From a virus, in the IMG/VR virus record IMGVR_UViG_3300017783_006344, positions 1 through 23,429 of that record: 23,429 nt of DNA. One strand, 5' to 3'. The position numbers and the translations under genes are program-made. Below, in pieces: positions 3,635 through 23,331 of this stretch (the stretch's first letter is position 1; each line of letters opens with the position of its first letter). The notes beneath the pieces were generated by a model. The model worked only from the letters and a program-made list of their open reading frames with translations. It searched no databases and was not told the origin of the DNA.

Positions 3635-4846
3635 ATGGGCACTAAGGAAAAGGAAATATATTTAGGCAATTTGTTCACAATTGACACTAAGCCATATCAA
3701 AGAGATTCTGAAATCTCAGAATTTGAGGCAGAGTTGATTAGATCTTATCTCAAAAATATACTCTCAGATATTGAAGAAGCAGAAAGCACAATAGAATTAG
3801 TAAATTCAAATTTTTTCTACGAAAGTTATTCTTTTATAACCAAAGATAAAAAATATCTATTAAAAATTAGTTTAGATCCAGACAACCAAAAACTTTCTAC
3901 CGAAAAAAAAGCTTTAGATTCTATAAGTGATTTAATATCACCTGAAGTTATAAATTATACAAATGATGAAGATTCTGGAATTGAATTTCTTCTTTTCAGT
4001 TGGGAAAATGGAAATAATTTTGATGCTTTCGGTATCGATGACCTCATGTATAATATTGAAACTTTAGTTTGTAATTTAGATTTTATGCATGAATCTGATT
4101 CTTCAGAGCTATCGTCTTTTGAAGATAAATTTATTCAAAACGAATCAATTTTAGAACTTTTTGAAGACGCAGATGAGAAAGAAAAAGCTATTTTTGAAAA
4201 ATTAGTAGGTTTAAATTTAGACGACGCTAAAAACATCTTCTCGACACTTAAAAATATTTTTCAAGAAAGATACTCTGAAGATATAGCTGTTTTGTGCCAC
4301 TCTAACCTTAAAAAAAGCAATATTTTATATCAGTCAGAATATATAAAGTTTATTAATTTTGAACACTCCCATAAAGCAGATATTTATTATAGCTTGCTAA
4401 AAGTAATCAATAATCTTTATTTATTCAAATCATCTAAAGATGTGAGTTTGTTTTTAAGAAGTTACCACGCTTCTTCCAAGTTGGTCAACGACCTTTCTGT
4501 TGAAGATTTTTTAAGCAGGTATGAAGAAAAAAAAGAAACTAATCGACTTCTTCTTTTTCAAGATATATTTCACGGGGTGCTTTTTCATTTTAACGCTTAT
4601 GGGGCTTTTTATAGATCGTCGGATTTGATAAGATATATTGAATTATACAATAACCTTAGACCGACTGTTGAAAAGTATTTTTCCCAATATTTAAAAAGTT
4701 TAGATAAATTGTTTTACACGCCTATTCAAAGTGTCCAAACTTACGATGAAGATGAATTAAAAGCAATTGCGGGTATAGTTGATGAAAAAGATGTTGAGGA
4801 AGAGTATTCAAACCCAGGTATAGAAGAATACGAAGCTCAAGATTAG
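3635..4846 (+). CDS. APH/choline-kinase-fold protein, probable pseudokinase
   Basis: A 403-residue protein with the layout of aminoglycoside-phosphotransferase or choline-kinase-like enzymes. An N-lobe strand carries the expected Lys (KKYLLKIS, Lys77), there is an alpha-C-type Glu (TEKKALDSI), and a C-lobe block LCHSNLKKSNIL (His222) is followed by FINFEHSHKADIYYSLL. In active members these read H-x-D....N and I-D-F/W-E. Here the catalytic Asp is Asn224 and the metal-binding Asp is Asn241, while Asn229 and Glu243 remain. The Asp of the usual 'DLA/FDI' helix is also absent (YYSLL). The simplest reading is a nucleotide-binding or purely structural pseudokinase. The C-terminal ~60 residues are acidic and probably disordered. 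It opens a new transcription unit behind a terminator and a leaderless-type promoter, upstream of glycosyltransferases. Fold assignment is moderately sure; the function is unknown. Confidence 0.68.
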   Translation: MGTKEKEIYLGNLFTIDTKPYQRDSEISEFEAELIRSYLKNILSDIEEAESTIELVNSNFFYESYSFITKDKKYLLKISLDPDNQKLSTEKKALDSISDLISPEVINYTNDEDSGIEFLLFSWENGNNFDAFGIDDLMYNIETLVCNLDFMHESDSSELSSFEDKFIQNESILELFEDADEKEKAIFEKLVGLNLDDAKNIFSTLKNIFQERYSEDIAVLCHSNLKKSNILYQSEYIKFINFEHSHKADIYYSLLKVINNLYLFKSSKDVSLFLRSYHASSKLVNDLSVEDFLSRYEEKKETNRLLLFQDIFHGVLFHFNAYGAFYRSSDLIRYIELYNNLRPTVEKYFSQYLKSLDKLFYTPIQSVQTYDEDELKAIAGIVDEKDVEEEYSNPGIEEYEAQD

Positions 4847-4877
4847 TTAATATAAAACAATAGAATATTGCATTTAT

Positions 4878-4893
4878 TGTATTATAATCTTGC
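4878..4893 (+). promoter_or_regulatory. Promoter-like -10 box abutting the ATG, class A
   Basis: TGTATTATAATCTTGC runs into the ATG at 4894; the exact TATAAT is at 4883-4888, 5 bases before the ATG. The 13-mer differs by one base from the box at 3618. No Shine-Dalgarno sequence is present. A weak 5-bp hairpin (CAATA/TATTG, 4858-4870) lies just upstream. Confidence 0.65.
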
Positions 4894-5361
4894 ATGAGTC
4901 ACAAACAGCACGATATTTATAAGCCAAATTCTTCTAACTCTGGATGCGCATTTTCCTTCAAGATTGTTGAAAAAGATAAAGAGGGAAACAATCAAAAACC
5001 GTCATTTCTTGTCCAATCGATCAAGCAGGCTAGTTGGAACAGTCAAAAAAGAACGGGATCTTTTAGCGCTAACGCTAAAGACCCAGAAAAGAATATCTAT
5101 TTTAAATTAGGAGAAAATGAAATTGGGGGAATGCTCCATGCAATCGAAAATTATGTAGAGTTTTCTGCTTATCATAGTTATAATGACGATAAAACTCAAA
5201 TATCTTTCAAGCCCTACACAAAGAAAAATGGCCAAAAAGCTTTTTCTTTTAGTGTAGTTAAGAACTCTACCCTAAAATTTGGAATGGGAGTCGAGCTTTC
5301 AGAAGCGAGAACCCTAAAAGGCTTGTTTGATCTTTTCTTGTTTAAGTACTTTAATTACTAA
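4894..5361 (+). CDS. Conserved phage-type protein, possible ssDNA-binding (PUR/Whirly-like)
   Basis: A 155-residue soluble protein of alternating beta strands. It has the layout 'YKPNSSNSGCAFSFK ... QSIKQASWNSQKRTGSF ... YFKLGENEIGGMLHAIE ... FSAYHSY ... ISFKPYTK ... FSFSV ... LSEARTLKGLFDLFL'. I recall this pattern from uncharacterised phage proteins. It suggests a four-strand sheet plus helix, repeated, as in PUR-alpha/Whirly single-stranded nucleic-acid binders, but I cannot confirm this. There are many Lys and aromatic residues. It has its own promoter-like box, and its stop shares one base with the ATG of the glycosyltransferase gene (TAATG), so the two are likely co-translated. The name is tentative; the coding call is firm. 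Confidence 0.6.
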   Translation: MSHKQHDIYKPNSSNSGCAFSFKIVEKDKEGNNQKPSFLVQSIKQASWNSQKRTGSFSANAKDPEKNIYFKLGENEIGGMLHAIENYVEFSAYHSYNDDKTQISFKPYTKKNGQKAFSFSVVKNSTLKFGMGVELSEARTLKGLFDLFLFKYFNY

Positions 5362-7046
5362 TGAAAAGAATTCTTTTTCACTCTAATTCAGCTAAAGCTT
5401 TTACTGGATTTGGCAAAAATGCAAAAAATATTTTGCGTTACCTACATAAGACGAATAAATATGAAATTATTGAATTCGCAAATGGCATGCAGTGGGGTCA
5501 CCCATCTCTTTCCTTAAGGCCGTGGAAGGCCCAAGGATCTTTACCTAATAACCCTGCTTTAATTAAAGAAATAAATTCCGATCAACAAAAAGCTAGAGCG
5601 GGCTCATACGGAAGTTTTACTATTGATCAAGCCATAAAAGAATACAAGCCAGACATTTACATAGGATGTGAAGACATTTGGGCTTTCGGAGGCTATTGGG
5701 AAAGACCTTGGTGGGATAAAATCAATAATATGATTTGGACTACCCTTGATAGTCAACCAATACTTCCACAAGCTTTAGAAGCGGCGCCTAAAACTAAAAA
5801 TTTTTATGTTTGGGCGTCTTTCGCAGAAAAAGACATGAAAGAATTAGGCCATGATCATGTTAAAACCCTACATGGCACTGTCAATACTGAAGATTTTTAT
5901 AAAATTAGTGACCTTGATAGGAGAAAATTAAGAGCCAAATTTAATCTTTCCGATGAATTTATTGTTGGATTTGTTTTTAGAAATCAGTTAAGAAAGAGTG
6001 TCCCGAATTTACTTGAAGGTTTTAAAATATTTAAAAAAGAATGTCCAAAAGCTAAATTATTATTACATACGCATTGGAGCGAGGGATGGGATATCCCAAG
6101 GCTTTTAAAAGAAAAAAATATAAAAAATGAAGATATTTTAACTACTTATTTTTGTTCTTCTTGCAATAATTATGCGATAGCACCTTTCTGTGGTCAAGAA
6201 AAAACCTGCCCATTTTGCGGGGCTGAAAAGACTTTCAATACTACAAATACTAGGGCTGGAGTAGATGAATCTCAACTAAATGAAATTTATAACATTATGG
6301 ATGTTTATTGTCATCCATTTACTAGTGGAGGTATGGAAATACCAATCTTTGAAGCAAAAATGACCGAGCTTGTAACTTTAGTCACGAATTATTCTTGCGG
6401 AGAAGATTCTTCTGGCCTCGAATGCGGAAGCTTTTCTCTTGATTGGTCAGAATACAGGGAACCAGGAACTCAGTTTATTAAAGCTTCAACATATCCGTCT
6501 AGCATAGCAAAACAACTTAAAAAAGTTTACAATCTAAAACCACACAAAAAACTCGAAATGGGTAAAAAAGCTAGAGATTGGACTATTGAAAATTATTCTA
6601 CAGAGTCTATTGGGAAAAAACTAGAAAAAATTATAGATGAAATGCCTTCCATAGAATACGACTTTGATTGGAATAAGGATCAAAAAGGCATAGATTTGAA
6701 AGATTTATTAGACGAAGGTAAGCGAATTGCCGTTGTTATGCCTGAATCTGCTGGCGATGTTTTATGGATTAATAGTTTAATGACAAATCTCAAAAAACTT
6801 TATCCTGATCATGATATTTATGTTTTTACCAAGCCTCAATTCTTTGATTATATAGAAGACCACCCAGCGGTTCACAAAACTCTAGGATATTCACAAGGAA
6901 TAGACAATTTACATTTTCTAGAAGGCAAAAACGGGCATGAGGGATTTTTTGATATAGCGTTCTTACCGCATTACGGGACTCAGCGCTTCCACAATTATCA
7001 TCATAATGGTATAGATAAAACACAATTTGAGTTATATGAAAATTAA
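5361..7046 (+). CDS. Glycosyltransferase: GT4-like with inserted zinc ribbon, fused to the N-terminal half of a GT9 (heptosyltransferase-like) domain
   Basis: 561 residues. Residues 1-440 are a GT-B glycosyltransferase of GT4 type: N-terminal FTGFGKNAKNILRYL, then VGFVFRNQLRKSVPNLLEGF and CHPFTSGGMEIPIFEAKMTE. In the usual E-x7-E motif the second Glu is present (331) but the first position is Gly323. A zinc-ribbon-like insert lies at 265-286 (C265-x2-C268, Cys277, C283-x2-C286). From about 452 a second enzyme begins: RIAVVMPESAGDVLW, with Asp466 at the place of the GT9 catalytic Asp, then LMTNLKKLYPDHDIYVFTK. It stops after ~110 residues, the length of the first Rossmann half of a GT9. The matching second half appears to be the start of the gene at 7418. 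It should transfer sugars from activated donors to a surface or virion glycan; donor and acceptor are unknown. Overlaps of 1 base upstream and 11 bases downstream indicate coupled translation. Confidence 0.85.
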   Translation: MKRILFHSNSAKAFTGFGKNAKNILRYLHKTNKYEIIEFANGMQWGHPSLSLRPWKAQGSLPNNPALIKEINSDQQKARAGSYGSFTIDQAIKEYKPDIYIGCEDIWAFGGYWERPWWDKINNMIWTTLDSQPILPQALEAAPKTKNFYVWASFAEKDMKELGHDHVKTLHGTVNTEDFYKISDLDRRKLRAKFNLSDEFIVGFVFRNQLRKSVPNLLEGFKIFKKECPKAKLLLHTHWSEGWDIPRLLKEKNIKNEDILTTYFCSSCNNYAIAPFCGQEKTCPFCGAEKTFNTTNTRAGVDESQLNEIYNIMDVYCHPFTSGGMEIPIFEAKMTELVTLVTNYSCGEDSSGLECGSFSLDWSEYREPGTQFIKASTYPSSIAKQLKKVYNLKPHKKLEMGKKARDWTIENYSTESIGKKLEKIIDEMPSIEYDFDWNKDQKGIDLKDLLDEGKRIAVVMPESAGDVLWINSLMTNLKKLYPDHDIYVFTKPQFFDYIEDHPAVHKTLGYSQGIDNLHFLEGKNGHEGFFDIAFLPHYGTQRFHNYHHNGIDKTQFELYEN

Positions 7047-7434
7047 TATTCCAATATCAGTAGGAGAACTTGTTGATAAAATCACAATTCTTGAAATTAA
7101 ATCTATAATGATTAATGAAAAATTTAAATTGGCCGAAGTCAAAAACGAAAAAATTCAACTCATGGAAGAGTTTGAAAAAATTTGTGATGTTAATTTTTCT
7201 AAATCACAACTCCTTGCCCTAAAAGCAGATCTTTATGAAACCAACTTAAGACTTTGGCATATTGAAGATAATATCAGAAAGAGCGAACGAAATAAGGATT
7301 TTAGCGCAGAATTTGTTAGATTAGCCAGAAGTGTTTATCAAGCAAATGATACGCGATTTGGTCTTAAAAATAATATTAATCAATTAACTAATTCAGACAT
7401 AAAAGAAGTAAAATCATATGAGTCATATAGCTGA
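7036..7434 (+). CDS. DUF6165 family protein
   Basis: 132 residues starting at ATG 7036 (MKINIPISVGELVDKITILEIKS). An upstream in-frame TTG at 7027 would add only three residues and is less likely. The N-terminal 'P-[IV]-S-[IV]-GEL-[IV]-DKITILEIKS' signature is typical of DUF6165, a family of short helical proteins I know from polysaccharide or LPS loci; no biochemical role is established to my knowledge. The rest is charged and mostly helical (LLALKADLYETNLRLWHIEDNIR). The gene overlaps the upstream glycosyltransferase by 11 bases and the downstream one by 17. It therefore sits exactly between what look like two halves of a GT9 enzyme, which suggests it may help those halves assemble (inference). 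Confidence 0.82.
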   Translation: MKINIPISVGELVDKITILEIKSIMINEKFKLAEVKNEKIQLMEEFEKICDVNFSKSQLLALKADLYETNLRLWHIEDNIRKSERNKDFSAEFVRLARSVYQANDTRFGLKNNINQLTNSDIKEVKSYESYS

Positions 7435-8551
7435 AGTATACGCAAAAGATTTGGGCGTTAAAATTAGTGATCCCGTGATAACAGATCATTTTTTTCCAGG
7501 ATTGCCCGACAAATACATAACTATTCAAGCATCAAACAAAATGCCAGCAGCAAATTATTTGTATTGGGACTTGGTAATTTATTTGATAAAACCTCATCTT
7601 GGAGATATAAAGATAGTCCAAGTAGGAGGCCCAGATGACAAACAAGTAAATGGAATAGATCTATCTGCTCTAGGTAATTCTTACAAACAAATGAATTATG
7701 TTATTAAAAACGCTAAAGCTCATTGTGGCTGCGACAGCCTCCCTTCACATGTCGCTAGTGTTTATGATATACCCTCAATCACTTTGCACTTTAATCTTTA
7801 TAAAGAAAATTCAAAGCCCATTTGGCACAAAAATAATTGCTGCATAAGCATTGAGCCAGATTTCTCAAAAACAAAGCCATCCTTTTCCACAGATTGCAAC
7901 AGAATAAATGAGATTAAACCAGAACAAATTGCTCAAGCGGTCATTGATCAATTAAAAATTAAAGAAAAAATAAAATTTAAAACTATAAGAGTCGGCTCTT
8001 CTTATAACCAAGACCTTGTTGAAATTGTTCCTAACTTTTTTTCTCCTCATCAAGATTTAGTAAATAAAAATATAAACATTAAATCGGACATTCATTTTAA
8101 TAAAGAAAATATTATAAATTGGTGCAGACATTCAAATGTAAACCTTTTCTTAGATCAGGTTATAAATGATGAAATGATTGACGCTTGCACAAACTTGAAG
8201 CAGGTGGTGTTTAATTATCACGCCAAACATAAAGACTTAGATCTCTCAAATTTTATTAAAAAATTAAAAAATAACAGAATCAATTTTGTTATGCAGGTTC
8301 AAGATGAAAAAATGTTTTCCGACACTAGTCTTAAATATTTTGATGATAATGTTATTAGAAAAAACAATACAGAACCAGAAAACGTTTCAAATACAGAATG
8401 TAAATTCTTTTCTAAAAAGAAATTTGTTTCAGAGGGAAATGTATTTAATTCAGAATTTTCTTCTAAAACGCTTGACAATTCCAATAAATTCATCTACAAT
8501 GAAGCCTCAAAATTAGAAATAGAAAGTTTATACCTATATGTCGAAGAATAA
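7418..8551 (+). CDS. GT9 (heptosyltransferase-like) C-terminal half with an extra C-terminal domain
   Basis: 377 residues. It starts at SHIAEVYAKDLGVK, which corresponds to the middle of a normal GT9 protein. A Rossmann half follows: YITIQASNKMPAANY, KIVQVGGPDD, and the signature block KAHCGCDSLPSHVASVYDIPSITL, equivalent to the 'DTGxxHLAAALG.P' donor-site motif, with the Asp kept. No N-terminal GT9 half (with its GD motif) is present; that piece ends the gene at 5361-7046. Residues ~190-377 form a separate domain I do not recognise (SYNQDLVEIVPNFFSPHQDL, VNLFLDQVINDEMIDAC), possibly acceptor-binding or structural. The gene overlaps DUF6165 by 17 bases and the next gene by 14. GT9-like identity is well supported. 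Activity on its own is doubtful, since the catalytic and donor sites would be on two polypeptides. Confidence 0.78.
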   Translation: MSHIAEVYAKDLGVKISDPVITDHFFPGLPDKYITIQASNKMPAANYLYWDLVIYLIKPHLGDIKIVQVGGPDDKQVNGIDLSALGNSYKQMNYVIKNAKAHCGCDSLPSHVASVYDIPSITLHFNLYKENSKPIWHKNNCCISIEPDFSKTKPSFSTDCNRINEIKPEQIAQAVIDQLKIKEKIKFKTIRVGSSYNQDLVEIVPNFFSPHQDLVNKNINIKSDIHFNKENIINWCRHSNVNLFLDQVINDEMIDACTNLKQVVFNYHAKHKDLDLSNFIKKLKNNRINFVMQVQDEKMFSDTSLKYFDDNVIRKNNTEPENVSNTECKFFSKKKFVSEGNVFNSEFSSKTLDNSNKFIYNEASKLEIESLYLYVEE

Positions 8552-9735: not shown

Positions 9736-10674
9736 TTATATAATCTCTACTGCATAACCAGTTCTTACATCACTTTCGTTCAATAAGCAATCGATCTCAA
9801 ATTCTACTGATTGGTTGTTTGCAGGTATTGTTATTTTATTTTCTGAATCTACTGTAAGGTCCGCTGAACTACTTACAAGCGGTATCCCACTACCAGAAAT
9901 TGTTATTTCTTCTGTAGTGTTTATTTTAAAAGTCCCATAAAAATCTAATGGTATTGAATCGTCAATCACAATATTAGTTCCTGTAAATATTTCTGATGGT
10001 TCAGATCGGTCGTAACCAACAAGTACGTCGTTTCCATTTGATCTCGTTATTACAAACGGATCAACATTTATTCTAGTGAAATCACTAAAACCACTAAACA
10101 TTACCCCACTTATCGAGGGGGATTCTTTTCCAAAAGTTAAATAATCAGTGGGTATAACTTTATAAAATATATTTTCTTCTACCAAGGGATTTTCGTCTGC
10201 GCCCGTTATTTCAGTATCTACGACATTTACAAGGAAAAATGGTTCTCCAGAACTTAAACTAACAGGAAACTGAGAGATTCTATTTTTATGGTTCAAAGAG
10301 TCTACTTGAAAATTTACGTCGAATCCAGTATAAACATCTACATTTTTTATGTTTTGTATGGCTAGACCAGTTGCTCCGTTCAAATCTCCAGAAAAGAAAG
10401 CTTTTAAATTTATATTAGCTTCTAAAATATCTATGTTGTCGAAAAATTGTTCATCTGGCGTTGATCCAGTAGGTTCAAATAAAAGATTTTTTCCTTCAAA
10501 TTCTAATCCAGTAATCGCAAATTCAGGAAACTCTATTTTGAGTCTACCAGAACCGCTATCAAAAAAATCACTTCCATCAGAATTTTCAGCCGTTTCGGAT
10601 CCTCGCACCCTGCACTCTACTATATATCCATCCGAAGCTGGATGATCGCCTATAACCGTTTCGTTAAATATCAT
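9736..10674 (-). CDS. Tail-tip associated beta-rich protein of unknown function
   Basis: 312 residues, start overlapping the stop of the J-like gene (ATGA), last gene of the tail cassette. The sequence is almost entirely short beta strands and turns rich in Asp, Asn, Ser and Gly (DGSDFFDSGSGRLKIEFPEF, NIVIDDSIPLDFYGTFKIN), with no signal peptide, coiled coil or transmembrane segment. Only two Cys are present. The composition, strand and coupling indicate a virion structural protein, perhaps decorating J or forming part of a short fibre. No specific family is recognised. An alternative is a J fragment that became a separate gene; I see no motif to support that. Confidence 0.75.
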   Translation of the reverse strand: MIFNETVIGDHPASDGYIVECRVRGSETAENSDGSDFFDSGSGRLKIEFPEFAITGLEFEGKNLLFEPTGSTPDEQFFDNIDILEANINLKAFFSGDLNGATGLAIQNIKNVDVYTGFDVNFQVDSLNHKNRISQFPVSLSSGEPFFLVNVVDTEITGADENPLVEENIFYKVIPTDYLTFGKESPSISGVMFSGFSDFTRINVDPFVITRSNGNDVLVGYDRSEPSEIFTGTNIVIDDSIPLDFYGTFKINTTEEITISGSGIPLVSSSADLTVDSENKITIPANNQSVEFEIDCLLNESDVRTGYAVEII

Positions 10675-13600
10675 AATATTCCTGTTACCCCTATTTGTAA
10701 AAAGTTAAAATTAGCAAGCTTGTTTCTATTTATTATCGCTTGAGATTTTTCTATAGACCCCACTACACTTCCGCTGGCTGTATTATCGGTAGAAATGTCT
10801 TCAAAATACAGTTCACTTTCTACGTCTAATAAAAATTTAGTTCTCTCCAGCACTTCTATATCATCTTTAAAAGTATTTGGGTCGTTGAAGTGATTGCTTT
10901 GAGTTTCTTGTCCAGTTGTTAATCCAATATATTTCATTATAAGACCACTTGTTAAAGCATTTCCAGGCAATTCGGAATTGCCTAATACCTTAAAGCCTGT
11001 GTTTGAATCAAAAGTATCAAGAAGAAAATCGCTAAATGTAGGTGCGTTGCTTCCAGGATGGGGTCCAGACAGAAGTGATGTAAATAGATTAATTGGGTTG
11101 GTGCTATTTGTTATTGTATTATTTGATATTGTTTCTCCTCCAGTCCAAACAGCTACATCCCATGGGTAATTTACATTTTCGCCCCCTGACCAAGCAATTT
11201 TATCATGACTAATAAATGAATCAAAGTTGGGACTATTACTGTCCGTCACTAATTGGTTCAATATTGAAGCTCCTCCCGTCCAAGAATTTACATCCCATGG
11301 GTAAATTACATTTGGCCCTCCAGACCATGCGATGCTACCAGCGGAAAGAAATTGATCAAAAAATGGAGCGCTGCTATTTGTTACTGTTTGGGGCTTTGCG
11401 CTCCAAGAGTTCACATTAAATGGATAATCAACATTTTGATCGACAGAGGTCCAAGCAATTCTGTCATGGGAACGTATTTGGCTGAACACTGGGGAAGAAG
11501 GACCTACTTGATCATCACCATCCTGCCAATCAGTAACATTTCCTGGAAAGTTTACATTTGCTCCACCTGACCAAGCAATTCCATTATAAGATGGACTACT
11601 TGGATCATCATCTGTTAAGATCCAAGTGTTGCTTGCTCCACTAGTTCTAATTCTTAGTCCAGAGTGCGACGTATGTACAAATAAATCTGCACCCCCAGTA
11701 TATGTTCCATTGAAGGCGTTTGGATTGTCCGTCATCCCACTTCCTACCGCACTTAGGAAAAATCCAGTAAAATAAGTATTAGCTGTATTTTCATCAATAA
11801 GAATCCAATACCCTCCAACTTTTTTAACTCTTAATCCAGACGTTTGTGTGTTCACAAACAAATCATCGGTCCCAGTATATGTCCCGTCGAAGCTATTTGG
11901 ATTATTTACCATACCAGTACCAACTGAAGATATCCTGAATCCAGTGGTAGCCGCTTGATTAGTTTTAAATATCCAAGTATCGTTGGTTCCACTCTTTTCG
12001 ATTCTTAATGTAGGTGTTGATTCATTCTCATATACATCATTACCAATTCTAATATACGACCCGTCGAAGCTAGTTGAATTACCCACTATTCCAGTTCCAA
12101 TTCCATCTACATCAAATCCAGTAATATAGATATTAGCTGGGTCATCATCACAAAACACCCAAGTATTATTAGCCCCAGTTGTTTTAAGCCTTAATCCAGA
12201 TGTTGTTGTGTTCTGATATAAATCGGCGCTGCCAGTATAGTCACCATCGAAGTCATTTGGATTAAAGCTCATGCCACTTCCAATTCCTTGGATCATAGTA
12301 AATCCAGTGAAAAAAGCTCCTCCAGACCATTCAGTTTCTGTAGCATCATATGGCGTGACAAGACTAGGATTAGCTAAGTCTTCTCCTCCCGACCAAGCTA
12401 TCGGTAAATTTTTATAACTAATAGCTGGGTCATCATCACAAAGCACCCAAGTATTATTAGTTCCACTTGTTTTTATTCTTAACCCAGTGAATTCAGTATT
12501 TTGATATAAATTTTCGCTGCCAGTATATGTTCCGTCAAAGCTTCTTGTATTTTGCGGCATGCCGCTTCCTACATCGGATACAGTAAATCCAGTAGAATGT
12601 TCTATTATTTGAGTATCTGTTATCGCCAATTCGCCATCAACATAGCCTTTCAGTAATAAATCTCTATCTACTTCAACATATAATGCATGCAGATTTCCAT
12701 CATTTAAAGAAGCTCCTACAGCACCAGTAATAGCTAAATAGTCTACTCCATTTAAATTAATATAATTTTTACCATCTCCAGATTGGAACCAAGCTATACC
12801 AGTTCCGTCTTTATGAGATTCTAATAAATATTGCTTTCCGTCAAGAGCTGTTCCAAATTTAGCCCAAGCAAACATTGTAAAATCTCCAGTTCCTACAGTT
12901 AAATCAGCTCCAGTTAATAAAATATGATTATCTGCACCATTAGTTTGACTGGCACTTATTCCAGTATCAAGCCCACTCGTGAGCATGTGTTGGTGGACTT
13001 TATTCTGTCCACTTATTTCATGCACTACAAAAAATTTGTCTTCTAAAATAGCATCTTCTCCAGACCTTTGGCATAGAACAGCATATTGATCGTGATTAAA
13101 TATACTATTCGTAACCGAAAGCTCGGAGCCATTAAATTCATTTAAAATTGGAGTGCCAAAAAGATAATCTTCATCTCCAGTGGATGCATAATTTATTACA
13201 TTTACTGGTAAATCAGTTGCTGTTGTATTGTTAAACGCTAATTGGTCTACAGCTATGTAAGCATATTTACCTGTACCTCCCGCTGGAGTTCCGTTATCTT
13301 GGAAAGCCGCAAAGGAAAATCCATGAGTAGACACTCCAGTTATACAAGTTTCGTTTGTTTCCTTATCTAAAGTAGTGTCTGCTTGTTGCAATTGTATAAC
13401 AACAGTAGGTATCGATGCAAATGGTTGATCAAAGGTAACAGTTTGGTATCCTGTACCCAATACAGAAGACCTGCTTACAAAATCAATTTTTATTTTTTTA
13501 GCGTCGACAGTAAAATTTCCAGTTTTAGAAGCTAAATATGTATAACGAATATCATGAAGACTCTCTTCAAATGATTTAACAAGGAAGTTAGTACCAGCGC

Positions 13601-16600
13601 TATTGCCTCCCCTTCTTCCCAGCGGTCTATAAATTTCATCACCAAAAGATCCAGTTACTTTTGGTTGAATAAATACGGCAGGAGTCTCATCAAACTCGCT
13701 TTCGAAAAATATACCTACTTCACTGGTTTCTCCTGATAATATATTGAAACTTGCAACTTCAAAATTCAACCCCGTAGGGATTCTATATTTTTCATCTCCA
13801 GTGTATCCAAACGCTTCATTGATTTCTTCATTGAGTATTGTAAAAGAGGAGTCATTTGTCAAAGTTTTAAAGTTACCTGATTTTACATTTCCGTCAACAT
13901 CTAATATATTTATTATTTGTTCCTCTATGGTTTGCTGTACTAAAAAACCACTATTTCCAAATATATCTTCGAATTCTAAATTTACAACTGCATTTATAGA
14001 GGGGTCATTTTGAAAAAAAGAATTTTGACCAACCCCAGTTTCATCTACATTACTGAATTCAGAACTAAAATCTGTTTCGATAAAAATATTTGAGTATTCA
14101 GTAAACTGATCTTGATTCGCGAATTGAAAATCAGCCGTCGTAGTCGAGAATTGAACATTAGTCGATAATTGCGATCTAACAATTGTGGGTGTTGTGTTTT
14201 CTGAAAATACGGTTATATTATAATTCCCTAATTGATCTATCTTAGAGTCTTGAGTTAATAAAATATCTGTTTGAGTTCCATTGCTTTTAAAGTGTTCGGT
14301 AACAATAGTTGTAGAATCAGGCTCTTCTAAAACAACTATATATTTTTCTGGCGCTTTTTCGGCGATAGTTGGGTCATTTATTGTAAAACTTAGATTTTTA
14401 GCTCTACTTGAATTCACATTAACTAATGATACATTCGTAATACTAGATGGTGGATCGGGCCTAACAACCTGCGTTAATTGAAGATTTGGCTGGAATGCAT
14501 CATTATCTACATCAAAAGATATGTTTTCTTCTACAAATTTAAATTTTCCAGTATGGTGTATTGTTGCTGATACATTAAATCCTATATTTTTATCTTCTGA
14601 TATATTTAATACTCTGTAATACTTTGGGTCTCTTCCAATTCCATCAACATTATAAATCGATCCGTGCTTTATATTTGCATCTTTTTCTGAGAACCATTGG
14701 CCGTCTGATCCATTTATAAAAAAAGCCACACCACTATCTACAATTTCATAACTCGTACCCAAACCACCAGGTTTTATTTTTAAAGAAATTACTTGTGGAT
14801 TATGTATCTCCTTATACAACTCATTATTTGAATTTGGGTTTTGATAAAAATCGTCGATTCCAGACTTGCCCACTGGATTATATATATGTATGTTTCCTCC
14901 ATTTACATATTGAGTTAAATCACTACCTATTGCTGGCTCAACTATTATAGCCGTTGGCCCCTTTCCATTTGCTGTAGTTCCATCTGGATCATAATAAGTA
15001 GTTAATCCGCTTGCCCCCAAAACTGTTCCATAATTTCGAGTGAAATTTCTCATTTCATCCTCAACTCTTATAATATCTCCTGGCTGCACTAAAAGAGCTT
15101 CTAAGCCAGCATTAAAAGATACTGTTTCTGTCGTATGCTGCGATTCAAATAAAACATACTTCGCCAATCTATGAGCCTGAGCTTTTGAGGTGACTCCTAT
15201 ACCTTCTATTTGTTTGAAATTTAATCCTACATGTTTTATAGCTTCAGGGTCTTCTACATATTCTGTTTGAGATGTAAAATTATTCCTTTTATCTAAAAAA
15301 GAAACTTCTACAGCGGATAGCTTTGTCGATCTGTCTACGTCTGCATATGCAAACATTCCATCTTTAATGTTCAAATTATTAAAAATTAAATGAGGGGGAA
15401 ATTTATTTTTTGCTGAAGCTGAATTCGAAGTGTTATTAACATCTTCAAAAAAATACGGTCTGTCTACCCTAACAGACACGCAAGAATTATTAAAATATGT
15501 CATCGCCCTAAATGATCTAGCAAGATTCTGAATAGCATCAAAAGCGTTCGTTTGATCCTTCATTAATATGTTGCAACTAAATCTAGGTTCAAGTCCACCA
15601 AATCCATCATCTACTCCGATAAACCTACCAGGGCCTCCCATATCATTAGTAGTCTTGCTTCCGTCATTCATTGTCACGGCGTCGCAATACATTCCTATTT
15701 CATATAGAGTCCATTTATCTATAATATCTATATCTTGCAAATAAGAACCTAAACCATATCTTTTGTTTGTTAAAAGATCATAATATATCCAAGCTGGATT
15801 ATCCGACCATTCATATTTAAAAGTTCCATCCCATGAGCCATTGTAAATAACATTGCCTCTTGTTGATTGGCCCGATCCATCCCAAAATCTATTATCAAGT
15901 CCGTCTGTATTGTTCGAGCTGTTAGCAACTATTGGATTATAATTTGAAGGTATTTTTATTTTTTTACCTTTAATTCTGAATGTCCTAGACGGAACTTGTG
16001 GGTGATACTGAGAGTCTATTTTGCTAGCTACATAACAACTTCCAGGATAGTAATAGGTATCTAGATATTTTTCTGTTATTGTACCTACTCCGACATTTCT
16101 ATTAACTAGATTAGAAATTGTTTCGTATTGTATCTTATGTATTTCTACAAAATTATACAAATCGGTATCGGATAGTTGAGGCAAAGTGATATCTTCTAAG
16201 GTTATTGTGTATGGTGCTGTAATGATCCCCCTGACCGATAGCCTTCCATTTCCATCTCCAACTGTTTTGCCCTTTCCTGGCCTAACTGTAAAAGTTGCAG
16301 CAGAGATTGTCACGGTGCCATTTTTATCTGCGTGACCGACCTTAGCCTCAAAGGTTATTGTCAGTGGCATGGGTGTTCCCATTTTACTTTTACCCGCTTT
16401 ATTTTCACTTTTGGTAGAATGTGATCTTGTGTCACTTAACGAGTCTATTTGCAAGCCCACATCTATCTTGTCTATATCTTTATCATAATTTGTATATCTA
16501 TACGGTTTAGCCTTTGATTCTATTGGTACATATTTTTGCCAATTTACAAAGTCTCTTGCGCTAGTTCCCTCTTCTCTTATATCTCTACTTCCGCTACCTG

Positions 16601-17159
16601 TTCTTGCACCATTTTTACTGACATCGACTGTATAATACTCAGTTGTAGTTTGCCAACCATATCGGCGAGAGTAAGTTCTTTTTTCTCTTGACCGCGTTTC
16701 GGTCACAACAGCCATTGAATATGGACCTTTAACTGGGGCAGATACCTTTTTTAACCTACTTGGATTTTGTGCGATAGAGCAATAATTTTGTAAAATTTTT
16801 CCGCTTTTAAATTCAATATTATATTTAGAATGAGTTGAATTACCATCCGAGTCTCTTACGGCGTTTTCATTAAAATAAATTCCTTGATCAATAGGAGAAA
16901 CCGTTCCTCCAATAAAATTTTCTTCTTGATTAAATTTTTTCTCAACTATGTTCCCCTGACCATTTCCTCCAAGAATTATACCTCTTTGATTAACTAGGCC
17001 TGCGACCTCACCTTCGCACAACAAATCTACCGCCTCGTATATCTGATAACCCTGTTTGGCGGGAGTCGCATCTGGCGGCATCAAGTAAGAAGGAGTAGCT
17101 CCCTTACTTTTACCAGCTATAACAATCTTTTTATTAAATATGTTTTTATAAAAACCCAT
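10671..17159 (-). CDS. J: Tail tip / host-specificity protein J-like, giant multidomain receptor-binding protein
   Basis: 2162 residues, against about 1130 in lambda J. The N-terminal ~850 residues form the J-like hub: DATPAKQGYQIYEAVDLLCEGE, PAWIYYDLLTNKRYGLGSYL, and ALLVQPGDIIRVEDEM. Next come an Fn3-like region (~905-1010), an H-type-lectin-like stretch near 1190-1300 (VTFDQPFASIPTVVIQLQQA, GVSTHGFSFAAF), and a LamG/concanavalin-like domain near 1390-1515 (GDFTMFAWAKFG, YVDGELAI). Five ~59-residue repeats start near 1524, 1619, 1681, 1740 and 1799. Tryptophan repeats of the type IAWSGGxNVxYPWDV occupy ~1860-2015. It should sit at the tail tip and bind host surface glycans or proteins. The start overlaps the I-like stop by one base. 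The J identity rests on the N-terminus and L-K-I-J order; the domain names in the second half are by-eye matches. Confidence 0.9.
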   Translation of the reverse strand: MGFYKNIFNKKIVIAGKSKGATPSYLMPPDATPAKQGYQIYEAVDLLCEGEVAGLVNQRGIILGGNGQGNIVEKKFNQEENFIGGTVSPIDQGIYFNENAVRDSDGNSTHSKYNIEFKSGKILQNYCSIAQNPSRLKKVSAPVKGPYSMAVVTETRSREKRTYSRRYGWQTTTEYYTVDVSKNGARTGSGSRDIREEGTSARDFVNWQKYVPIESKAKPYRYTNYDKDIDKIDVGLQIDSLSDTRSHSTKSENKAGKSKMGTPMPLTITFEAKVGHADKNGTVTISAATFTVRPGKGKTVGDGNGRLSVRGIITAPYTITLEDITLPQLSDTDLYNFVEIHKIQYETISNLVNRNVGVGTITEKYLDTYYYPGSCYVASKIDSQYHPQVPSRTFRIKGKKIKIPSNYNPIVANSSNNTDGLDNRFWDGSGQSTRGNVIYNGSWDGTFKYEWSDNPAWIYYDLLTNKRYGLGSYLQDIDIIDKWTLYEIGMYCDAVTMNDGSKTTNDMGGPGRFIGVDDGFGGLEPRFSCNILMKDQTNAFDAIQNLARSFRAMTYFNNSCVSVRVDRPYFFEDVNNTSNSASAKNKFPPHLIFNNLNIKDGMFAYADVDRSTKLSAVEVSFLDKRNNFTSQTEYVEDPEAIKHVGLNFKQIEGIGVTSKAQAHRLAKYVLFESQHTTETVSFNAGLEALLVQPGDIIRVEDEMRNFTRNYGTVLGASGLTTYYDPDGTTANGKGPTAIIVEPAIGSDLTQYVNGGNIHIYNPVGKSGIDDFYQNPNSNNELYKEIHNPQVISLKIKPGGLGTSYEIVDSGVAFFINGSDGQWFSEKDANIKHGSIYNVDGIGRDPKYYRVLNISEDKNIGFNVSATIHHTGKFKFVEENISFDVDNDAFQPNLQLTQVVRPDPPSSITNVSLVNVNSSRAKNLSFTINDPTIAEKAPEKYIVVLEEPDSTTIVTEHFKSNGTQTDILLTQDSKIDQLGNYNITVFSENTTPTIVRSQLSTNVQFSTTTADFQFANQDQFTEYSNIFIETDFSSEFSNVDETGVGQNSFFQNDPSINAVVNLEFEDIFGNSGFLVQQTIEEQIINILDVDGNVKSGNFKTLTNDSSFTILNEEINEAFGYTGDEKYRIPTGLNFEVASFNILSGETSEVGIFFESEFDETPAVFIQPKVTGSFGDEIYRPLGRRGGNSAGTNFLVKSFEESLHDIRYTYLASKTGNFTVDAKKIKIDFVSRSSVLGTGYQTVTFDQPFASIPTVVIQLQQADTTLDKETNETCITGVSTHGFSFAAFQDNGTPAGGTGKYAYIAVDQLAFNNTTATDLPVNVINYASTGDEDYLFGTPILNEFNGSELSVTNSIFNHDQYAVLCQRSGEDAILEDKFFVVHEISGQNKVHQHMLTSGLDTGISASQTNGADNHILLTGADLTVGTGDFTMFAWAKFGTALDGKQYLLESHKDGTGIAWFQSGDGKNYINLNGVDYLAITGAVGASLNDGNLHALYVEVDRDLLLKGYVDGELAITDTQIIEHSTGFTVSDVGSGMPQNTRSFDGTYTGSENLYQNTEFTGLRIKTSGTNNTWVLCDDDPAISYKNLPIAWSGGEDLANPSLVTPYDATETEWSGGAFFTGFTMIQGIGSGMSFNPNDFDGDYTGSADLYQNTTTSGLRLKTTGANNTWVFCDDDPANIYITGFDVDGIGTGIVGNSTSFDGSYIRIGNDVYENESTPTLRIEKSGTNDTWIFKTNQAATTGFRISSVGTGMVNNPNSFDGTYTGTDDLFVNTQTSGLRVKKVGGYWILIDENTANTYFTGFFLSAVGSGMTDNPNAFNGTYTGGADLFVHTSHSGLRIRTSGASNTWILTDDDPSSPSYNGIAWSGGANVNFPGNVTDWQDGDDQVGPSSPVFSQIRSHDRIAWTSVDQNVDYPFNVNSWSAKPQTVTNSSAPFFDQFLSAGSIAWSGGPNVIYPWDVNSWTGGASILNQLVTDSNSPNFDSFISHDKIAWSGGENVNYPWDVAVWTGGETISNNTITNSTNPINLFTSLLSGPHPGSNAPTFSDFLLDTFDSNTGFKVLGNSELPGNALTSGLIMKYIGLTTGQETQSNHFNDPNTFKDDIEVLERTKFLLDVESELYFEDISTDNTASGSVVGSIEKSQAIINRNKLANFNFLQIGVTGIL
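11100..11580 (-). repeat. J-protein tryptophan repeats (IAWSGGxNVxYPWDV)
   Basis: Four to five copies of a motif encoding IAWSGG-x-NV-x-YPWDV-x2-W, spaced about 120-130 bases and joined by Ser/Asn/Pro-rich linkers such as SNSPNFDSFISHDK. One further IAWSGG copy sits near 12390 between repeat units 1 and 2. Confidence 0.75.
11590..12305 (-). repeat. J-protein repeat units 2-5 in tandem
   Basis: Four adjacent copies starting at 12305, 12119, 11942 and 11765 (spacing 186, 177 and 177 bases), each encoding ~59 residues with a conserved GF start, G(S/T)G(M/I), FDG-Y, LRI/LRV and W-I/V-DDDPA core. Copies differ at many positions, including silent ones, so they are diverged rather than recently amplified. 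Copy 3 lacks the DDDP element. They probably form a string of small beta domains in the tail fibre. Confidence 0.8.
12420..12590 (-). repeat. J-protein repeat unit 1 (GSGM..FDGTYTG type)
   Basis: First of five copies encoding 'GF-x4-GSGM-x6-SFDGTYTG-x2-LYQNT-x4-LRIKTSGTNNTW'. It is separated from copy 2 by an insert carrying an IAWSGG motif. Confidence 0.75.
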
Positions 17160-20564: not shown

Positions 20565-21485
20565 TTAATACATTACGGTCCAATTGCCTCTGTCATCGCC
20601 CGTAAGTGTATCTTTATAGGAAATTGCGGCTGTTGTCATTCCGCCATTCCCAGCGACATTGACAAACCCACCATTAGCTCCAGCGGCTACAAGAGCGGCT
20701 AACAAATCCTCCACAACAGCAGAACTAAAATTATTGTGGTTTGCTATTAATTTTCTTAAAGAAGTTGGTAAATTGCTTCCAGCCCAACTAGTTAGATTGT
20801 TGCTAAAGCACGAAAATGTATGCATACTAGTATTGTTAATTAAATCTGGAATAGCGCCAATTAAATCATTTGAATTGCACCACATCTCAAGCATTTTTGT
20901 GTTTACCTGTACAGATACAATTTCTCCAGTTAAATTATTTGATGCAGTGTCAAACCATTTTAGTTCACCATTGTTTGCAACTGATGGCATACCCCCAGTA
21001 AAAGAATTGCGATCAAGTTGTAAATCTTCTAAAAACGGACAGTTATCTACATTAGGGCAGGTTCCTGTAAAATTACTATTATGCAAGAATATGCCCCTCA
21101 TCTGAGGAGAGGAGGAAAAGTCTGGAGCTGATGGGTTAGTCAAAGGATTATCCGAAACATCATAAAATTTAAAATTATTCGTAGCGGGTGGCGCTGGTGC
21201 GTCACCAGTAAAACTATTATTTGGTACATTAAAAGCATGCATAATAGATTGTGAACTTATATCTGGCAAAGATCCAGTAATTTCATTGTGATCAGCTCTA
21301 AATTTATGATACTGCTTATTGCTCATATCCATATCCAACGCTGTGATGCCTTGATGCATCACTCTAAAGTCTCTTAAGTTGGTAAACTTAGTTAATTGCA
21401 TAGTCCCTTTAAGTTTCGGCCCCCCATTTCTAGTAATATGCAATTGGGTTATGTTTTCTGGATTATCTATCGATACTCTTGGCAT
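20565..21485 (-). CDS. Leucine-rich-repeat protein, likely receptor-binding fibre component
   Basis: 306 residues made of about nine LRR units of 22-25 residues with the plant-type pattern 'L-x2-F-x3-N-x-(L/F)-TG-x2-P' (HNEITGSLPDIS, NNSFTGDAPA, RNSFTGGMPSVA, SNNLTGEIVS, SNDLIGAIPDLI). The C-terminal cap VEDLLAALVAAGANGGFVNV ... RGNWTVMY is the one usual in phage and bacterial LRR surface proteins. There is no signal peptide, which fits a virion protein rather than a secreted one. The N-terminus begins abruptly at PRVSIDNPENITQLHI with no adaptor or PKD-like domain; those parts are present in the short gene at 19688 on the opposite strand. Likely function is binding to the host surface. Confidence 0.85.
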   Translation of the reverse strand: MPRVSIDNPENITQLHITRNGGPKLKGTMQLTKFTNLRDFRVMHQGITALDMDMSNKQYHKFRADHNEITGSLPDISSQSIMHAFNVPNNSFTGDAPAPPATNNFKFYDVSDNPLTNPSAPDFSSSPQMRGIFLHNSNFTGTCPNVDNCPFLEDLQLDRNSFTGGMPSVANNGELKWFDTASNNLTGEIVSVQVNTKMLEMWCNSNDLIGAIPDLINNTSMHTFSCFSNNLTSWAGSNLPTSLRKLIANHNNFSSAVVEDLLAALVAAGANGGFVNVAGNGGMTTAAISYKDTLTGDDRGNWTVMY

Positions 21486-21521: not shown

Positions 21522-22670
21522 TTAAAAATTCCAGCGATATCCAACGAATGCTTTGTTTTTAAATACGTCGGCATCTTTATTTAATAGATGCAGGCCTTGG
21601 TAACCAATTTCAGCATAGTGGCTCTCGTTGTACTTCCAAGAAAAAATTATACTTGACATAAATACTTCTTCCTCACGCTCTAGTCCAGCGTTATACCTAT
21701 TTCCAATATCTTTATATGAGGTAAGAAGATGAGCGCCCATTACGTTTACTTCAAGTTTTGGTGTGATTGGGTATTTCACCATAAGAGATGTTTTTAAATT
21801 CTCTTTCATGTTCCAATATGCTACAGACGAGTCCAGAACTTCGTACACGGTACCTAATAAAATTACTGTGCCTTTTTCGGTAAAGTATGTTATATTCGCA
21901 CCATATGTAGGAGTTGAATATTCTGTTAGTGTGCCATATTGATCTTCTATTAACGCGTCGGTTATTCCATAGTTTACTTTTAGAATAGTCGATGGATTCA
22001 TTATATACGAAAATTGTGCATAATACACATCAGTATCAACTGCTCCACGAACTCCGCTATAATCTAAAAACGATTTCTTGCCTATCAACTCTAGAATAAA
22101 ACGTTTACCAAGAATTTGTTCTGCGCTAAACGTAAATGCATCTTTGGTAAAGTCGCCATTGGTTAATTCATTGCCAACTCCTACTGGCAAGTTTTCTGAC
22201 CAACGTTTAATATGGCTTTCATAACCACCTTTAAGTTTTAAGAGATGCCGAGGTTTCCACGTTAGCATGTACGAACTCTTATATATGAAGTAAGTTACAT
22301 CTAGATCGTCATCAAGATCGCTTGGCTCTCTTTCTAAATGAGAGAATGAATCGGTAGAATTAAGAATAAGCTTCGGTGTTATTTCGTATTCACCTCTGAT
22401 ACCAATGTTGCCAAATATTAATGTTTTATTATCGACGCTTCTGTGTCTTATTTCTGGTTGAGCCTTCAGATTTATTAAGTCTCTAAAGAACTTACCTTCT
22501 ACTCCTAGTGATTGACTGAAGTAAAAGGTCGATGTTTGATCGGGGGTTCCAGCCGCCCGCATAAATACATTGTCATCGTAGAATATTCTACTAAATGAAG
22601 TGAGCTTGAACTTCTTCTCTGCGTAAAGAGTTGATGCTACTAATAATAAAACTATAAAAATTTTATGCAT
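21522..22670 (-). CDS. Outer-membrane beta-barrel protein
   Basis: 382 residues from ATG 22670. The open frame extends upstream to a TTG at 22712, but the signal peptide MHKIFIVLLLVASTLYA (cleavage after Ala17) fixes the start. The mature chain alternates polar and hydrophobic residues in many strands (ILKVNYGITDALI, GTVILLGTVYEVL, HYAEIGYQGLHLL) and ends in ...FVGYRWNF with the terminal Phe expected for outer-membrane insertion. The early FSRIFYDDNVFMR resembles the 'YDDNVF' start of EpsL/BBP2-type barrels found in PEP-CTERM and exopolysaccharide systems. It overlaps the PEP-CTERM gene by 8 bases. Such a cellular envelope protein is unusual in a phage. It may alter surface glycan export, mask receptors, or have been captured from the host. 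Confidence 0.85.
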   Translation of the reverse strand: MHKIFIVLLLVASTLYAEKKFKLTSFSRIFYDDNVFMRAAGTPDQTSTFYFSQSLGVEGKFFRDLINLKAQPEIRHRSVDNKTLIFGNIGIRGEYEITPKLILNSTDSFSHLEREPSDLDDDLDVTYFIYKSSYMLTWKPRHLLKLKGGYESHIKRWSENLPVGVGNELTNGDFTKDAFTFSAEQILGKRFILELIGKKSFLDYSGVRGAVDTDVYYAQFSYIMNPSTILKVNYGITDALIEDQYGTLTEYSTPTYGANITYFTEKGTVILLGTVYEVLDSSVAYWNMKENLKTSLMVKYPITPKLEVNVMGAHLLTSYKDIGNRYNAGLEREEEVFMSSIIFSWKYNESHYAEIGYQGLHLLNKDADVFKNKAFVGYRWNF

Positions 22671-23331
22671 TTCTTCTGCCAATTGCGACATATAGGAACG
22701 CAATCCAGCCAAAGATCAAAGCGTAACTTGATGGTTCGGGCACTGTACTAAAATATAGTTGGCTTGGTCCATTTATCTCAATATCCATTGAGCCGAGTGC
22801 ATCAGCTTGAAAAGAAGTAAATACCACTAGATATTCTTTTTCTTCTAAGTCAAATAGACCGTCGAACGCACCTTCGCCTGTACCAGTTCCTTGTCCGCTA
22901 TTAAGACTTTGGCCTCCACCAAATCCAAATGTTGATGATGAGTTAAAAATATCTGGTATATTAGTTATAACATTACTTAAATCAAAATCGTCAGTATCAT
23001 ATAACAATACTTGTGTATCGACTGTCGAACCAGCTGATCCTTGCAATGAACTTGAGTAATTAGAGAAACGAAAATCATCACCCGCACTATCAGGCGTCAT
23101 GTATATGTACTCGTAATATGTACGGACTGTACTATTTTCTGCCCCATTCTGTGGAGGCTCATTCTCTGACACTTCCGCGCCGCTAAAACCTTCAATATAT
23201 TGGTCACCTAGAACGACGTCTATGTCATAGTAAGAATAGTTAGGGGTTGTACCAGTGAGTGGTCCTAGTATGCTAATACTAGCAGATACCGATGTCGTGA
23301 GTAATAGTAGTAATATAATCAGTTTTTTCAT
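22663..23331 (-). CDS. PEP-CTERM sorting-domain protein
   Basis: 222 residues. Signal peptide MKKLIILLLLLTTSVSA at the N-terminus. The C-terminus is a textbook PEP-CTERM tail: VPEP at 197-200, a hydrophobic helix (SSYALIFGWIAFLYVAI) and RRN at the end. Proteins of this class are exported and processed by an exosortase, usually in Gram-negative bacteria that make exopolysaccharide. The middle is beta-rich with Ser/Gly/Asp runs (GGGQSLNSGQGTGTGEGAFD) and no Cys. No exosortase gene lies in the window, so processing would rely on the host. The start overlaps the stop of the partial upstream gene (ATGA) and the stop overlaps the beta-barrel start, so the three are likely co-translated. Confidence 0.88.
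   Translation of the reverse strand: MKKLIILLLLLTTSVSASISILGPLTGTTPNYSYYDIDVVLGDQYIEGFSGAEVSENEPPQNGAENSTVRTYYEYIYMTPDSAGDDFRFSNYSSSLQGSAGSTVDTQVLLYDTDDFDLSNVITNIPDIFNSSSTFGFGGGQSLNSGQGTGTGEGAFDGLFDLEEKEYLVVFTSFQADALGSMDIEINGPSQLYFSTVPEPSSYALIFGWIAFLYVAIGRRNA

Follow-up and report, generated by a model that had tools for sequence, protein, structure and literature searches.

We analysed a stretch of viral DNA of 23,429 nucleotides (IMG/VR record IMGVR_UViG_3300017783_006344, positions 1 to 23,429; the window, meaning this whole stretch) in which two neighbouring genes, P1 (5361-7046, 561 amino acids) and P3 (7418-8551, 377 amino acids), each carry one half of a glycosyltransferase of family GT9. 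The two proteins are likely, with a probability of roughly 0.83, to be subunits of one heteromeric phage glycosyltransferase. An earlier note on this DNA had proposed a heteromeric GT9 with a GT4 enzyme on the same chain, and this proposal is now well supported by profile matches, the predicted fold, coupled loss of motifs, co-inheritance and universal synteny. Between the halves lies P2 (7036..7434, 132 amino acids), an optional gene of family DUF6165. Its start is the ATG at 7036, the mechanically called open reading frame (ORF) beginning with TTG at 7027. P2 overlaps P1 by 11 and P3 by 17 bases and the three genes occupy three different frames, so that positions, frames, overlaps and the location of DUF6165 exactly at the break are as first described. 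All features are on the plus strand unless stated otherwise.

Domain anatomy of the two chains

P1 begins with a GT4-type glycosyltransferase domain (residues 1-440, 5361..6680). Residues 3-428 match the glycosyltransferase PHROG 2170 (1.8e-21), and a match to PF00534 (6e-5) stays under the family cut-off. The domain contains a zinc-ribbon-like CxxC...CxxC insert at residues ~262-297 (6144..6251) with a weak match to PF14319; inserts of the pattern CxxC-x(8-22)-CxxC were found in 83 of 86 GT4 domains. In the active-site region of GT4 the sequence is SGGxE(I/L)P..EA, and the first Glu that EX7E normally has is missing.

The last ~108 residues of P1, following the GT4 domain, represent the N-terminal half of a GT9 enzyme (GT9N, residues 454-561, 6720..7043). 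Residues 455-515 align weakly to positions 1-61 of the NCBIfam heptosyltransferase II model TIGR02195 (E 0.05), whereas no Pfam GT9 match was found in P1. The presumed catalytic Asp466 is part of a GD motif (6753..6758) and aligns with Asp13 of 1psw, the heptosyltransferase II of E. coli. We also noticed long-form homologues of P1 with a DUF4214 domain between GT4 and GT9N (PF13946, 3.2e-6, residues 458-504 of the ORF at 4414-6330 of locus L055). The linker is similar in L036, and P1 of the window is without DUF4214. At 397-2313 of L082, GT4 and GT9N are placed on separate ORFs, possibly a further split or a sequencing error.

P3 carries the other half, GT9C, in residues 1-205 (7418..8032). 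It matches the Pfam GT9 profile (PF01075) only at positions 175-238 of 247 and with a score of 20.6 bits, just under the cut-off of 22, which its homologues clearly exceed (44.6 bits, 1.4e-11, in L042; 41.9 bits in L030). Residues 88-139 align weakly to positions 250-300 of the NCBIfam heptosyltransferase III model (E 0.03). The NCBIfam matches of P1 and P3 thus cover the start and the end part of such models and are complementary. D106, S107 and H111 form the D-S/T-x-x-x-H donor motif within GCDSLPSHVAS (7727..7759), which aligns to NDSGLMHVA of 1psw. The start codon of P3 is retained at the conserved first residues. The remainder of the protein, P3b (residues 206-377, 8033..8548), is a domain present in every P3 homologue and gave no significant Pfam or PDB match. 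The earlier note had recognized a GT9 N-terminal half with catalytic Asp466 at the end of P1, and a P3 that begins where a GT9 would continue and holds the donor-site motif. Both statements are borne out by the alignments to 1psw, the first also by NCBIfam and the second by PF01075 and hhalign, and profile searches found a complete GT9 in neither chain alone.

The halves correspond to one GT9 fold

A profile of the concatenated halves matched 1psw at both ends (E 4.7e-9), with query positions 2-56 aligned to 2-56 and positions 187-291 to 240-343. The GT9 structure 3tov was matched likewise at both ends, its residues 9-67 by the GT9N part. The comparison with unsplit phage GT9s by hhalign spans the junction (probability 97.8, E 1.3e-12). 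For structure prediction with AlphaFold2 (AF2) we used L042, a homologue with both genes in one frame, reading the stop codon as a residue to obtain a GT9N-GT9C chain; the alignment rows for the two halves were mostly unpaired. The joined L042 halves gave a complete GT-B fold with a pLDDT of 89.7 and a pTM of 0.88, only the linker at 96-114 being disordered. The 30 best PDB matches of this model in Foldseek were all GT9 enzymes, including 3tov (2.1e-14), 1psw, TibC and WaaC, and MurG was not among the profile hits or fold matches listed.

The first residues of P3, MSHIAEVYAKDLGVK, align with an internal stretch, MHLTEAWCQVLGIK, of the unsplit GT9 of L106. In the L042 model this stretch is the helix that precedes strand one of the C-terminal domain, which places the break shortly before the domain boundary. 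Judged from the secondary structure, the half carried by chain A (P1) appears to receive its last helix from chain B (P3).

Conservation of the split among relatives

Relatives were collected from IMG/VR by searches with P1, P3 and their alignments, keeping 80 per scan. One search yielded 313 relatives, and at least 454 were found for P1. Enough flanking sequence was available at 211 loci, some of which are overlapping copies of one contig. In these the gene order is P0, GT4+GT9N, optionally DUF6165, GT9C+P3b, P4, with P4 present in 211 of 211 and P0 directly upstream in 208. We obtained 145 distinct GT9N/GT9C pairs, every one of them split, a recurrence far beyond chance; no ORF joining GT9N and GT9C was found among the ORFs of 295 loci. 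The search for the same gene order or an unsplit version suggested by the earlier note thus returned the recurring order and no unsplit member of the family. A sequencing or assembly error was considered as the cause of the split and ruled out, since the split is conserved across hundreds of contigs. Two BFVD proteins of 924 and 985 amino acids may be GT4-GT9 fusions; both candidates are unconfirmed.

P3 gave no tblastn match among 50,697 records of named phages, and the sole match of P1 in named phages was to Synechococcus phage S-CBS4, weak and due to GT4. One scan of bacterial and archaeal genomes led to three contigs of metagenome-assembled genomes (L054-L056). In L054 and L055, filed as Flavobacteriaceae and Halobacteriovorax, the phage block lies beside tail-like genes, and these two are probably phage contigs placed in bacterial bins. 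Separate single-chain GT9-like genes also occur close to the split pair on the same contigs (L106:1208-2080, L124:917-1894, L160:~10627-11586 and, partial at the locus edge, 3-674 on the minus strand of L114 and L117).

Between the stop of P1 and the start of P3 the gap ranges from -14 to +637, the commonest values being -10, -4, +1 and +14. Short overlaps at the seam, and the fact that the genes of L042 and L016 share one frame apart from stop codons, could point to a frameshift, read-through or bypassing that joins both genes into one GT4-GT9-P3b protein. Yet all three frame relations occur (gap modulo 3 of 2, 1 and 0 in 81, 31 and 6 pairs), which together with the short overlaps favours a pair of coupled genes over a single product made by frameshifting. 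Furthermore, 27 pairs hold a whole gene between the halves, the gap length varies and P3 keeps its start codon. We consider translational joining extremely improbable.

Coupled evolution of the two halves

The GD motif of P1 and the D-S-x-x-x-H motif of P3 are both intact in 112 of the 145 pairs and both lost in 30, only 3 pairs being mixed. The raw Fisher value of this coupling (1.5e-27) is inflated by kinship of the sequences. When only tree-independent pairs are counted, the GT4 tree yields 11, with agreement in 9.5 and the opposite pattern in none (p ~0.004). Both motifs are lost in L007, L008, L009, L016, L025, L029, L033, L035, L040, L087 and others; these lineages are candidate pseudoenzyme pairs keeping the two-gene architecture.

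Such losses, which include the close GT4 relatives of the window L007-L009, would suit a view of the halves as decaying remnants of a once undivided GT9 that now serve GT4 for binding or dimerisation and no longer catalyse. We regard this as unlikely: both motifs are kept in the 112 intact pairs, the window among them, and random decay would not be expected to proceed in step across two genes. The GT9 block of the window is moreover motif-intact, although the flanking GT4 and P3b most resemble those of phages that have lost the motifs, a combination consistent with exchange of the block.

We examined this exchange by comparing the window with L006, L007 and L009 and with L001 and L005. DNA identity in sliding windows to L006/L007/L009 is mostly 80-90% across P0 and the GT4 domain, drops to 44-77% within ~6690-8010 and is mostly 75-95% past 8010. 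L001 shows the reversed pattern: GT9N and the greater part of GT9C are 77-89% identical, most of P3b 52-60%. We conclude that recombination has exchanged GT9N, DUF6165 and GT9C (~6690..8010) together, the breakpoints lying near domain borders, within P1 at ~6690 and within P3 at ~7890-8010.

Evolutionary distances point in the same direction. Those of GT9N correlate with those of GT9C in the other gene with a partial r of 0.67 (reached in 0 of 500 Mantel permutations), compared to 0.35 with GT4 on its own chain. Covalent attachment of GT9N to GT4 and of P3b to GT9C, as well as a correlation of GT9C with P3b distances (partial r 0.54), would suit a different arrangement in which GT9N serves the GT4 to which it is fused, P3 being an enzyme in its own right that uses P3b as second lobe. 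That GT9N tracks GT9C over GT4, that motif loss is coupled across the P1 and P3 genes and that the joined halves fold as one GT9 make this arrangement highly improbable. Motif coupling and shared inheritance are two independent evolutionary signals linking both halves.

DUF6165 at the seam

P2 matches DUF6165 (PF19662) with 29.6 bits and DUF4254 with 28.7 bits, each against a cut-off of 27. DUF6165 is present in 27 of the 145 distinct pairs and absent from 118. Its presence switches 3 times on the GT9 tree and 8-9 times on the GT4 tree. The former count fits a single late gain by the GT9 block with a few later losses, so that DUF6165 probably joined the pair once, when the split already existed. 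The same seam holds an Anp1-like protein in L208 and L212 (PF03452, 6.6e-10, ~6929-7567), a cupin in L193 (~6890-7250) and a small charged ORF in L162 (~6926-7119). Elsewhere in phages DUF6165 adjoins genes for FkbM/GT2, GT2, sugar-nucleotide dehydratase, sulfotransferase or unsplit GT9. A general tie of DUF6165 to GT9 was considered and rejected, since of 30 other records with DUF6165 only 5 contain PF01075, one of them above the cut-off. In the literature collection searched, no paper names DUF6165.

The suggestion of the earlier note that DUF6165 is a possible assembly partner found no support. A dedicated partner bridging or stabilising the GT9 halves would explain why the gene sits exactly at the seam overlapping both neighbours, why all 27 pairs bearing it are motif-intact and why most members of the DUF6165 clade without it have lost the motifs. 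However, 85 of the 112 motif-intact pairs are without DUF6165, including L075 and L084 within the DUF6165 clade. Together with the few changes on the GT9 tree, the varied sugar genes beside DUF6165 elsewhere and the other genes at the same seam, this makes such a role very unlikely. We read DUF6165 as a companion of sugar clusters that was inserted where the seam tolerates it.

A proposed composite GT9 site

In the heteromer that we favour, chain A would provide GT4 and the acceptor-side N-terminal half of GT9, and chain B the helix before the C-terminal domain, the nucleotide-sugar-binding C-terminal domain itself and P3b. P1 and P3 would be translated side by side via ATGA or short overlaps. 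The chains would then dock, and only in the docked pair would the GT9 cleft be complete, Asp466 being contributed by chain A and the D-S-x-x-x-H donor site opposite it by chain B. Most likely the assembly, a heterodimer or a higher multimer, would hold both a GT4 and a GT9 active site, and their co-location suggests two successive sugar transfers onto one acceptor. DUF6165, an accessory gene of sugar clusters, would have entered the seam at a later time, and assembly would not depend on it.

Several observations weigh against this reading. The GT9 half of P1 alone scores weakly in hidden Markov model libraries. The AF2 model represents a homologue with ~35-42% identity to the window in the two halves, joined into a single chain. 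The linker of this model is disordered, and its TM-scores to solved GT9s are moderate (~0.6, root-mean-square deviation 7-10 Å) and therefore do not prove the domain orientation. The independent-pairs test of motif coupling on the GT9 tree has too few pairs (p 0.06). The 30 motif-lost pairs probably have a non-catalytic role, and the motif letters in the window do not in themselves prove activity.

Neighbouring genes and other features of the window

Upstream of the block lies P0 (4894..5361, 155 amino acids), whose PDB profile match to Why2 of the Whirly single-stranded DNA-binding proteins is non-significant (E 0.86). The downstream neighbour P4 (8538..9284, 248 amino acids) is without a profile match. 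Its AF2 model is of medium to high confidence (pLDDT 87.7) and many human RAD52 chains are among its best Foldseek matches, all non-significant (E 0.01-0.1, TM by query below 0.3). P4 shows a strand-strand-strand-helix core and a ENRAFVRCVRNFL-type helix. From its predicted structure it is possibly a Rad52-like annealing protein. The position of the pair between P0 and P4 in nearly all relatives, together with the faint likeness of P4 to Rad52, led us to consider an obligate two-chain, two-active-site enzyme with a GT9 site formed on docking alone and acting on DNA or on a replication or recombination protein, an idea that we hold to be quite unlikely.

Several further genes of the window were noted. 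At 3635-4846 an APH/thiamine-kinase-like phosphotransferase with a weak NCBIfam match to GntI kinase is encoded, which also lies upstream of the block in close relatives. On the minus strand we found a tail-like protein of 2162 amino acids with NPNxFDGTYTG repeat units (10671-17159) and a leucine-rich-repeat-like protein with LxLDxNxFTGxxP-type repeats (20565-21485). A protein with a PEP-CTERM-like signal end (VPEPSSYALIFGWIAFLYVAIGRR; 22663-23331) and one looking like an outer-membrane barrel (21522-22712), both on the minus strand, are unusual for a phage contig. A T4-like DNA glucosylation via a thymidylate-synthase-type hydroxymethylase found no support, PF00303 being present in only 1 of 32 large relatives.

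Comparison with known systems

In the literature collection searched, no paper names a 'split glycosyltransferase', and to our knowledge no split enzyme has been described in GT9, nor one with GT4 and a third domain on its halves. If the proposed heteromer is real, it would be the first known split GT9 enzyme and would combine two glycosyltransferase activities in one heteromer. It would also define a large and conserved block of phage genes to which profile searches give no more than a partial annotation, and the motif-intact and motif-lost pairs would form a natural series on a split active site evolving into a scaffold.

The phage pair shares its fold, the GD motif and the D-S-x-x-x-H motif with the GT9 heptosyltransferases WaaC, WaaF (1psw), 3tov and the protein heptosyltransferase TibC. 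Characterised GT9 enzymes mostly use ADP-heptose. Unlike these single chains, the phage gene is broken before the helix preceding the C-terminal domain and its halves are fused to GT4 and P3b. The unsplit phage GT9s (L106, L160 and L274:4075-4998, the last beside DUF6165) are likewise one chain, with neither GT4 nor P3b; those of L160 and L274 pass the PF01075 cut-off, whereas L106 is without a Pfam GT9 match.

Separately expressed N- and C-domains of engineered GT-B enzymes assemble non-covalently into active dimers (PMC10937113); being artificial, these half-enzymes indicate feasibility only. The closest natural likeness is found in Alg13/Alg14 and EpsE/EpsF, in which the N- and C-terminal parts of a GT-B enzyme are separate proteins forming a heteromer (PMC4973528, PMC8993221), just as the phage GT-B is encoded as separate N- and C-terminal proteins in 145 of 145 pairs. 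The earlier note, which knew of no described enzyme of such a build, had overlooked these systems, which are of the MurG lineage. Alg14 is furthermore membrane-anchored, and no fusion to a second glycosyltransferase has been described for either system. The phage pair is GT9 by profile and fold, making it an apparently independent case with new fusion partners, which would extend the Alg13/Alg14 principle to phages.

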